The position numbers and the translations under genes were made by a program. Shown piece by piece: positions 35,028-37,257 of a stretch of 64,000 nucleotides of DNA. The stretch is from contig CAJXVS010000002.1 of NCBI GenBank assembly GCA_913061265.1, forward strand, positions 496,001-560,000, read 5' to 3'. This DNA comes from an uncultured Halobacteriovorax sp. (GTDB taxonomy: Bacteria; Bdellovibrionota; Bacteriovoracia; Bacteriovoracales; Bacteriovoracaceae). The notes under the pieces are model-generated. The model had not been told where the DNA came from, did no database searches, and was given only the letters and a program-made list of their open reading frames with translations. The stretch's first letter is position 1, and each line of letters opens with the position of its first letter.

Positions 35028-35573
35028 CTAGGCGCTTTGAAGAGGCTTCACAAAGTCTTTTTTGAGTATTCGGATTATATAGTCGATAGCCGAGAGGCTG
35101 CTTATGATCATAACGACTTTTAAGAGCTCCTGAGGGAAGGTTCCGCTATTTAGATAAAGGATGAAGGCGGCCATTTGTAGGGCAATTGTAAGGGATCCTG
35201 ATAGGCGGTAGGGAATCCTATGCAAGACTTCAATTCCTTGAGTAAAGATAAGAAAAAGACCTGCCCCTAAGACCACAATATCTTTAGAGATAAAAAGAAG
35301 AAATTTCCAAGTTTCCATTCCTGAAGCAAAGTAAGTCGTCAAAGCGACTGAAAGAAGCAAAAGCTTATCAGCGATAGGACCTAAGGATTTACCCATCTTA
35401 GAATGCCAATTAAGACCAATGGCCATGACTCCATCTAAGTGCGTGAAAAGCACGAACATTATCAACGGGAGCCTTAATGATAAAGGAGCGAAGGGATAGT
35501 AAGTGGCCACGCAAACTCTAAGGATTGTAAGGGCATTTGGAATCACTCTAAATGAATTATTAAAGTCCATCAT
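35028..35573 (-). CDS. CDP-alcohol phosphatidyltransferase-like, degenerate site
   Basis: A 181-residue membrane protein with about five or six helices, resembling PgsA-type enzymes (IPNALTILRVCVA at the N-terminus is the usual entry). The catalytic signature D-x2-D-G-x2-A-R-x8-G-x3-D-x3-D is present with exact spacing but altered: Thr44, Asp47-Gly48, Ala51-Ile52, Gly61, Gly65, Asp69. Thus the first and third Asp and the Arg are lost, and metal binding is unlikely to be normal. It may be a non-catalytic relative. AGGGGGATC precedes the start. It leads the small operon with the 143-residue membrane protein and DUF2288 genes. Confidence 0.72.
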   Translation of the reverse strand: MMDFNNSFRVIPNALTILRVCVATYYPFAPLSLRLPLIMFVLFTHLDGVMAIGLNWHSKMGKSLGPIADKLLLLSVALTTYFASGMETWKFLLFISKDIVVLGAGLFLIFTQGIEVLHRIPYRLSGSLTIALQMAAFILYLNSGTFPQELLKVVMIISSLSAIDYIIRILKKDFVKPLQSA

Positions 35574-35661: not shown

Positions 35662-36210
35662 TTATAAGAGACCTTTTGAAAGCTTAAGCCTGATTTCACT
35701 TAACATCTTTCCTAGTTTGTTTAAGCCGCTTCCATCCCCTGCGTCGCCCCAGTATTTATCTCTTGGAGTATGTTCAATTAGGGGGGACTTTCCCGTTGAG
35801 AGGAGAAGCTCTTTTAAGTTTTCATGTTGAGTAAACTTTGCGACTAAGGCCTTATACATAATGGCATCTTTTACTTCTTTCCAGTTTGCTCTTTTGGGAA
35901 GGCTCTTTTGCCTGCCTCTTTTTGCGGCCTCTTCAGGTGAAGTGGCAGCGCGAACATATTCTTGAAGCTTTTCTTGATCGTACTTATGAGCTTGATAGTA
36001 GTGCTCACTTGTTCCCCAAAGCTTATTATCAACAATAATGGGAAAGAGGGCAAAGTTAGAAAACTCACCATAAAGATTCTTACGGCTATAAAAATTTAGA
36101 GGAGCAGAATCTTCTCGCTGAACTATGGGAGTCCATGTCTTATGTTTTGCAGGCCCACTAGGAGTAGAGCAAGAACTTAGTAAGAAAAGAAAAAGAAGAA
36201 AGAGTTTCAT
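35662..36210 (-). CDS. NADAR-domain lipoprotein
   Basis: A 182-residue protein combining a lipoprotein signal peptide (MKLFLLFLFLLSSC, Cys14) with a full NADAR/YbiA domain: GEFSNFALFPIIVDNKLWGT, SEHYYQAHKY, RAATSPEEAAKRGR, the DAIMYKALVAKF helix and KYWGDAGDGSGLNKLGKML. NADAR proteins cleave N-glycosidic bonds in ADP-ribose-type or riboflavin-precursor compounds and normally act in the cytoplasm. Export as a lipoprotein is odd and suggests an envelope or extracellular substrate. A structured intergenic element lies upstream, between this gene and the divergent hydrolase. Confidence 0.82.
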   Translation of the reverse strand: MKLFLLFLFLLSSCSTPSGPAKHKTWTPIVQREDSAPLNFYSRKNLYGEFSNFALFPIIVDNKLWGTSEHYYQAHKYDQEKLQEYVRAATSPEEAAKRGRQKSLPKRANWKEVKDAIMYKALVAKFTQHENLKELLLSTGKSPLIEHTPRDKYWGDAGDGSGLNKLGKMLSEIRLKLSKGLL

Positions 36211-36270
36211 AAGGGCCTCGATAAGTTTAAGGCATTGATAACATTTTCTAGAAGGGATTGTCTTTCAGAT

Positions 36271-36483: not shown

Positions 36484-37257
36484 ATGTTTAAGATCTTAGA
36501 TTATATTTACTTGGGAATGAACCTCACCACCTTGAAAAAGGATGTTGAGGACGAGGGTCTTTATACTCAGTTCTCAAAGAAGGTTATCAAGGGGGATGAC
36601 TCCTGTGTTTGGATCTGTTTTCCCGGATGGAATATGCCCATCGATAGGGCCTTAGGAATTGGTTTTTTACCTAACGAGGGAACGCAAATTATTTACCAAG
36701 GGCCTATGAGTATTATTGGTCTTACTCCTAAGCAAACGGAAGAATCATTATTAAATCTAAAAAAAGATGTAGAGATGACCTTAAAAGAAGAAGGCCTAGA
36801 TAAGCTTCCTTTAAAGGTCTTTGGTTTTAGCGCAGGAACACTCGCTTCGTTTTGGCTTGCTAATCAAATGAAGGCTTCAGAGATCATCACCGTTGCCCCT
36901 GGCTATCGATTAGGAGAAGGGATCTATAATTCCTTAATCACTCTTGAGACACGAAAGAAATTACACGAAGCTGGCTGGAATAAAGTTAGCTATGATGAAC
37001 GAGTGGCAGAGTACAACCAAGAAAATAATATTGATAACCTGCCCATAGGAAAGGTTATGGTCTTTGCTGGAAAGCATGACACCTATGTCCCTCACGATCA
37101 TTCATTAGTTCTTGTTAAGAAATTAGAGAAGGCAGGAAAGAAGCCAAAGTTCTACTCTTATGATCATCTCGATCATGTTTCAATTGCTCTATATTTAGGT
37201 TGGTTAAATAAGCGAGGCAGGGATCCTTATAATCTCTCTACAAAGAAAGCTGCTTAG
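36484..37257 (+). CDS. Alpha/beta-hydrolase fold protein
   Basis: A 257-residue cytoplasmic protein with the serine hydrolase pattern: VWICFPGWNMP near the oxyanion strand, nucleophile elbow FGFSAGT, acid in FAGKHDTYVP and His in YDHLDHVSI. All three catalytic residues appear present. The substrate is unknown; short esters or lipids are typical. The start is uncertain: GAGG lies only 1 nt before the ATG at 36484, and an internal ATG at 36517 is possible. The 3' end overlaps rlmN by 20 bp. Confidence 0.75.
   Translation: MFKILDYIYLGMNLTTLKKDVEDEGLYTQFSKKVIKGDDSCVWICFPGWNMPIDRALGIGFLPNEGTQIIYQGPMSIIGLTPKQTEESLLNLKKDVEMTLKEEGLDKLPLKVFGFSAGTLASFWLANQMKASEIITVAPGYRLGEGIYNSLITLETRKKLHEAGWNKVSYDERVAEYNQENNIDNLPIGKVMVFAGKHDTYVPHDHSLVLVKKLEKAGKKPKFYSYDHLDHVSIALYLGWLNKRGRDPYNLSTKKAA

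Follow-up and report, generated by a model that had tools for sequence, protein, structure and literature searches.

The window, by which we mean the whole 64,000-nucleotide stretch of DNA analysed here, carries on its minus strand an ATG-started open reading frame for a predicted lipoprotein of the NADAR superfamily (Table 1). The NADAR domain, which a sequence-only reading had already assigned to this frame, is borne out by two profiles: PF08719 matches with E = 3.2e-35 and 122.2 bits (cut-off 35.1), and TIGR02464, the model for riboflavin intermediates N-glycosidase, with 130.9 bits (equivalog-domain cut-off 73.7). The model of NADAR family anti-phage proteins, NF053876, scores 84.7 bits, below its threshold of 240. 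This is the sole PF08719 match in the genome, whose nearest kin are Halobacteriovorax bins. The closest solved chain is E. coli YbiA (phmmer, 2.3e-46). An AlphaFold2 model of the protein has a mean pLDDT of 87.2 and is less confident around the active-site loop (block means 61 and 79); with Foldseek it retrieves YbiA first (2b3w, E = 1.7e-15, 48% identity over the structure alignment) and the ADP-ribose-bound NADAR 8bau next (E = 2.0e-7).

Table 1. Features of the NADAR locus in the window, and the two family-B genes found elsewhere in the same genome
Feature	Position	Strand	Basis
Exported YbiA-type NADAR lipoprotein (predicted), 182 aa	35662..36210	-	ORF, profile and fold matches
Shine-Dalgarno-like GAGG	36216..36219	-	5 nt upstream of ATG; putative function
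Lipoprotein signal peptide, residues 1-13, MKLFLLFLFLLSS	36172..36210	-	sequence; heuristic class SPII
Lipobox Cys14, predicted lipidated; Ser at +2, not Asp	36169..36171	-	sequence; putative acylation
Linker, residues 15-37	36100..36168	-	alignment
NADAR domain, residues 40-177	35680..36093	-	Pfam profile; AlphaFold2 model
E69 ... K76, counterparts of P. nicotianae NADAR E43 and K50	35983..36006	-	invariant 34/34
Active-site loop E146-H-T-P-R-D151-K-Y-W154, equivalents of E125, D130, W133	35749..35775	-	E/D/W invariant 34/34
CDP-alcohol phosphatidyltransferase, next gene downstream	35028..35573	-	88-nt gap
Peptidase_S9-like hydrolase, divergent upstream neighbour	36484..37257	+	beside NADAR only in L015, L016 (same genus) among the loci compared
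Family-B gene, own genome, contig C1	L194:3998-4663		profile match, below Pfam cut-off
Family-B gene, own genome, contig C7	L195:4001-4636		profile match, below Pfam cut-off

The export signal and the active site

The protein begins MKLFLLFLFLLSSC-S, and its first 14 residues have the make-up of a lipoprotein signal: Lys2, a nine-residue hydrophobic run (L3-L11) and, as in bacterial lipoproteins, a lipobox (L11-S12-S13-C14) that ends in Cys, here the only one in the protein. The lipobox at Cys14 thus stands as the sequence-only reading had described it. That reading had also named an objection to itself, a start codon downstream of the lipobox. Do we find one? Between codon 1 and Met118, which is already inside the domain, there is no in-frame ATG, GTG or TTG, and the GAGG sits just ahead of the ATG, so the objection fails and a downstream start can be rejected. 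Cys14 would then be lipidated, and with Ser at +2 the protein is presumably sorted to the outer membrane, following the E. coli rule. In the alignment, the linker shows an H-Y-x3-P-x-T-P-like pattern common to many orthologues.

As for catalysis, seven residues of the Phytophthora nicotianae NADAR bind ADP-ribose or take part in its cleavage according to excerpts of PMC11543638: E43, K50, R79, W89, E125, D130 and W133. Mapped by hand from the alignment to 8bau (whose chain numbering is that of the paper plus two), they correspond to E69, K76, R100, W110, E146, D151 and W154 of the window protein, and all seven are invariant across the 34 proteins of family A, the group of exported relatives described below. 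A catalytic Glu in the last strand marks the YbiA subfamily, with Asp in BC4488 and His in phage (excerpts of PMC11125620); here E146 lies in strand 144-146 of the model and is invariant in all 34, which places the window protein in that subfamily. With the seven residues kept, the window enzyme is probably active, and N-glycosidase chemistry on ADP-ribosyl or ribosyl-phosphate derivatives is compatible with the fold and with these invariant residues.

One may still ask if an exported NADAR could be a binding protein or a relic, and not an enzyme at all. We know of no activity measurement for any exported NADAR, which leaves room for such a proposal; but the invariance of all seven catalytic and ligand residues in 34 of 34 proteins speaks against it, as does a model whose confidence is high through most of the domain and lower at the active-site loop, and we find it very unlikely.

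Export signals across the Bdellovibrionota

A screen of 368 Bdellovibrionota genomes gives 67 with a PF08719 match and 39 with a match over the cut-off, for a total of 40 over-cut-off matches. Family A comprises the 34 of these that are YbiA-type single-domain proteins, all of which we read; several of the carrier genomes are metagenome bins. Signal classes come from home-made scripts, one strict and the others looser. The strict script reports a signal peptide in 33 of the 34 proteins; the 34th, L102, fails it by having an Arg within the hydrophobic stretch, and is lipoprotein-like by eye. Some members have a lipobox and others a plain Sec signal, so that export, and not lipidation, is the conserved trait.

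The homologues used as controls behave differently. We collected 80 homologue loci, 22 of them from the Bdellovibrionota (21 family A and the fusion protein L025; two of the 22 were placed in the phylum by sequence identity with genomes G145 and G034) and 58 from outside it, and the strict script finds a signal peptide in none of the 58. A looser script, which sets the domain start only roughly in weaker matches, finds none in 30 Myxococcota loci (one per genome, from 48 matches in 40 of 282 genomes, with at least two repeats, as L148 and L149 duplicate sequences of the 58) and none in six viral loci. As far as signals can be read from sequence, exported family A is restricted to the Bdellovibrionota in the sets compared. 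A phage origin was rejected, the six viral YbiA-like loci being signal-less and no viral locus having been found for the second family described below.

These controls bear on the simplest doubt, that the protein is a cytoplasmic enzyme whose hydrophobic start reflects misannotation or mere coincidence. Such a doubt could appeal to the literature on NADARs, which in the excerpts at hand describes none as exported. However, the frame offers no other start before the domain, signals are present in 34 orthologues (33 by script) vs. none of 58 and none of 36 controls, and the relatives keep signals of differing sequence and type. We regard a cytoplasmic location as extremely improbable. The envelope location put forward by the sequence-only reading is, on the contrary, well supported by the lipobox, by export kept across the clade with two signal types, and by a cysteine pair in 26 of the 34 relatives.

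In our careful tree (93 rows, 147 columns) the 34 exported proteins form one clade with bootstrap 100 and SH-aLRT 96, the bootstrap of this tree being not fully settled. The exported label requires a single change on the tree, or two if L025 is counted as exported; 500 shuffles need 27.8 changes on average. The nearest non-exported row, in a quick tree, is a Myxococcota (Polyangia) protein, L033, with support 88. The cysteine pair has the form C-x4-C (C-Y-W-[GA]-D-C) in the active-site loop: both cysteines are present in 26 of 34 proteins, neither in eight, and a single one in none. The positions are K152 and A157 (just past the loop) in the window protein, which with its genus belongs to those without the pair. 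Neither cysteine occurs in any of the 44 non-exported homologues readable by script, 14 of the 58 not fitting the pattern. The pair requires two changes on the tree, and two cysteines that are gained or lost as a unit next to the active site are consistent with a disulfide in an oxidising compartment; we infer a disulfide in these family A relatives.

Other NADARs in the phylum are of different types. Four of the 40 over-cut-off proteins (L007, L123, L124, L126) have no clear signal by eye and do not belong to family A; in L007 a hydrophobic stretch is present with no start codon ahead of it. L008 is a 585-aa frame with a hydrophobic start lacking a preceding ATG, several cysteines in its middle part and a divergent C-terminal NADAR. 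The fusion L025 (the same protein as L095) is about 452 aa long when counted from its ATG. Between a signal-like start and a C-terminal NADAR it has a long stretch in which no Pfam family exceeds its cut-off. It lies outside the clade of exported proteins and is perhaps a second gain of export. Among the Myxococcota, L060 (Myxococcaceae bin SSF57) is a 430-aa frame with a signal-less NADAR followed by a macrodomain-like stretch, which by eye would be two different ADP-ribose-handling folds in a single protein, and L074 (Polyangia bin 8_bin.71) shows, again by eye, tandem NADAR domains in one frame.

The surroundings of the window gene tell us little. No terminator-like site was found in the gap between it and the CDP-alcohol phosphatidyltransferase gene, which is not adjacent to the NADAR gene in the relatives compared and is therefore probably unrelated to it. 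Among the loci compared, no neighbour of the window gene is conserved outside its genus. A conserved partner was rejected after ten neighbour proteins of other loci had been scanned and no common partner appeared: eight matched Pfam families (thioredoxin, APH, MacB, transglycosylase, Band-7, FKBP, methyltransferase and DUF4010), and two had no Pfam match. A nucleotide theme is absent from the family A neighbours.

A second, divergent family with export signals

Besides the matches over the cut-off, 31 weak PF08719 matches of 20-28 bits point to a separate, divergent family of NADAR fold, which we call family B; 18 of these were read at first, and 48 family-B loci in all. A family-B model (L014, mean pLDDT 91.5) retrieves the three solved NADARs first, and a profile comparison of the family with YbiA gives E = 2.6e-5. 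Its nearest models are those of phage gp30.3 (PF08010) and of NADAR (PF08719), each of which gives the four members that were scanned 25-34 bits. It differs from them in three respects: these scores lie under both curated cut-offs; by eye, Asp-His stands at the Glu-His position of YbiA; and a hydrophobic signal is present at every one of the 48 loci read, with a lipobox-like site in 25. The rule behind this last count is loose, accepting an ATG, GTG or TTG start and a hydrophobic stretch alone, and L189 passes it solely by way of a far upstream ATG. Applied to 18 family-B loci, the strict script leaves two without an ATG-started signal and two more without a recognised cleavage site. By profile search, family B is matched in 110 of 358 Bdellovibrionota genomes (in G175 only weakly) and in 2 of 282 Myxococcota genomes, where neither match has a signal by eye.

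The window genome itself holds two family-B genes, one for a lipoprotein (L194) and one for a protein with a Sec signal (L195). The latter stands in a tight row of genes: Exo_endo_phos_3, NADAR, type I phosphodiesterase/nucleotide pyrophosphatase, aldolase II, ARD and HAD. The first three gaps measure 31, 7 and 5 nt, and an adenosine deaminase gene is convergent to the row. By eye, the Exo_endo_phos_3 neighbour has a signal-like start and the pyrophosphatase neighbour a lipoprotein-like one. A nuclease-family neighbour is found at 4 of the 48 loci (L195, L013, L197, L199), and a pyrophosphatase neighbour also at four (L195, L197, L199, L203). Either partner occurs at five loci, from three genera together, L203 (genome G059) and L013 (G033) coming from other genera.

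Are the two families equivalent? In one genus, g71 (24 genomes, G154-G177), family A occurs in 12 genomes (L098, L099, L101, L103, L106-L109, L114, L116, L119, L122), family B in nine (L184-L192, the weak G175 match being excluded), neither in three and both in none. The hypergeometric probability of zero overlap is 1.7e-4, a value that takes no account of kinship and is not to be read literally. The exclusion hints at equivalence, but it is not general, since the window genome and at least eight more carriers (G001, G002, G015, G034, G062, G110, G111, G145) have both families. A swap of family B by family A at the same locus in g71 was rejected because the families sit at different loci; nine of nine g71 loci have the same gene next to family B, and family A has no neighbour in common with family B. 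Family A in g71 is found in a variety of gene contexts, which gives the impression of frequent relocation, judging from flanks of about 1.4 kb for most.

A shared task for the two families would suit a protective role, in which an exported NADAR removes ADP-ribose placed by hostile ADP-ribosyltransferases on the envelope or the secreted nucleic acids of the predator. NADARs do act as the antitoxins that counter DarT1 and YarT (excerpts of PMC11125620 and PMC11543638), and families never found together in g71 perhaps do one job. On the other hand, the known targets of NADARs are nucleic acids located in the cytoplasm, no ADP-ribosyltransferase was recognised among the neighbours scanned, and the g71 pattern is weakened by kinship and by the co-occurrence just described. 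We consider protection of this kind quite unlikely. A link to DarT itself is rejected, with a match in one of 34 carriers and none in the window genome, and a DarTG1-type antitoxin is further disfavoured by the Glu that the window protein has where such antitoxins have their catalytic Asp. The full DarT match in a carrier is that of L141 (G068).

Proposed substrate and role outside the cytoplasm

An exported, active NADAR has to find its substrate beyond the cytoplasm. Our best explanation, to which we assign a probability of about 0.45, is an outer-membrane N-glycosidase acting there on ribosyl- or ADP-ribosyl-N-linked nucleotides, probably derived from prey. Sec would export the window protein, Cys14 would receive the lipid, and the outer membrane would then hold the lipoprotein on its periplasmic or its outer face. 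The enzyme would cleave the N-glycosidic bond that joins a ribose (of ADP-ribose or of ribose-5-phosphate) to a base or an exocyclic amine. The substrate would be nucleotide material released, probably, from prey or dead cells, and modified or ribosylated nucleotides would thereby enter salvage. NADARs remove ADP-ribose from guanine in DNA and RNA (excerpts of PMC11543638 and PMC11833690) and also act on riboflavin intermediates (as cited in the excerpts of PMC11543638), and the secreted predator nuclease Bd3507 reportedly rises late during growth inside prey (excerpts of PMC12546842). A periplasmic or extracellular nucleotide salvage also fits the family-B gene row. For the extracellular or prey-derived ADP-ribosylated material that the sequence-only reading had suggested, this row is the sole contextual support, and an indirect one, as it surrounds a paralogue in the same genome and not the window gene.

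Could the name of the equivalog be taken literally? In that case a riboflavin-intermediate N-glycosidase of the TIGR02464 type would have moved to the envelope and would degrade riboflavin precursors from prey, which agrees with the TIGR02464 score and with the 48% identity to E. coli YbiA. Riboflavin intermediates, however, are scarce and unstable outside cells. In addition, lumazine synthase (RibH) is absent in 7 of the 34 carriers, and none of these seven has a RibA match above 110 bits, so the exported NADAR appears not to be tied to the riboflavin pathway of its owner. Among the seven, two are bins with a completeness below 90%; when the count is limited to carriers of at least 90% completeness and no more than 5% contamination, lumazine synthase is absent in 5 of 27. 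The strong RibA match is absent in 12 of 34, including all seven RibH-less carriers. In 29 of the 34 carriers, including most of those without a strong RibA match, a frame of 421-489 aa matches GTP_cyclohydro2 with about 50-66 bits. The window genome has a full RibA and RibH, so that for this genome alone a riboflavin-related substrate could still apply. Finally, E. coli YbiA cleaves guanosine-ADPr too (excerpts of PMC11125620), and the equivalog name therefore does not fix the substrate. A riboflavin-only role is thus weakened, and we judge it unlikely.

Several known systems come close to the window protein. E. coli YbiA is soluble. It has in common with the window protein the domain (2b3w, TIGR02464), the predicted fold and the catalytic Glu and Lys. 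Unlike YbiA, a 168-residue chain whose match begins at residue 12-15, the window protein has a lipoprotein signal and a linker, and 26 of its 34 relatives have the active-site cysteine pair. The DarT1-associated antitoxins (BC4488; G. lovleyi 8bat) share the NADAR fold, the distal-ribose Glu and the phosphate Lys, but their catalytic Asp, N-terminal extension and DarT partner, described in excerpts of PMC11543638, are absent in our case. The myxobacterial YarT-YbiA pair is of the same YbiA subfamily; it has an ADP-ribosyltransferase toxin as partner and the excerpts of PMC11125620 mention no signal, whereas the window protein is predicted to be exported and no ADP-ribosyltransferase is seen nearby. 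The Phytophthora nicotianae NADAR (8bau), for all seven of whose ADPr-site residues the window protein has equivalents, is eukaryotic, has an insertion in the fold and is not a lipoprotein.

Among the literature matches listed for NADAR, YbiA, Bdellovibrio ADP-ribosylation and prey nucleases, as far as their excerpts go, we found no exported NADAR, and the excerpts of PMC11125620, PMC11543638, PMC11833690, PMC12546842 and PMC9503650 mention none. The fold and the chemistry are known; the export, its phylum-wide pattern, the cysteine pair and family B appear to be undescribed within those matches. The automatic name "riboflavin biosynthesis intermediates N-glycosidase" is doubtful for the exported NADAR genes.

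A normally intracellular, YbiA-like enzyme that carries an export signal, in a phylum where its relatives are predicted to be exported as well, hints at a so far unstudied function in nucleotide processing outside the cell. As a tentative extension, the two exported NADAR families, together with exported nucleases and pyrophosphatases, may strip ribosyl and ADP-ribosyl groups from the nucleic acids and cofactors of the prey, an extracytoplasmic ADP-ribose and nucleotide chemistry that would take place at the cell surface or in the bdelloplast. If this were true, these would be the first NADARs with a site of action beyond the cytoplasm. Excerpts of the literature treat NADARs as intracellular enzymes, and the exported pair of families would provide a testable site for extracellular N-glycosidase chemistry. 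It would also offer stand-alone, perhaps disulfide-bearing NADARs that could be purified as secreted proteins, and would bear on how predators recycle the nucleic acids and cofactors of their prey.
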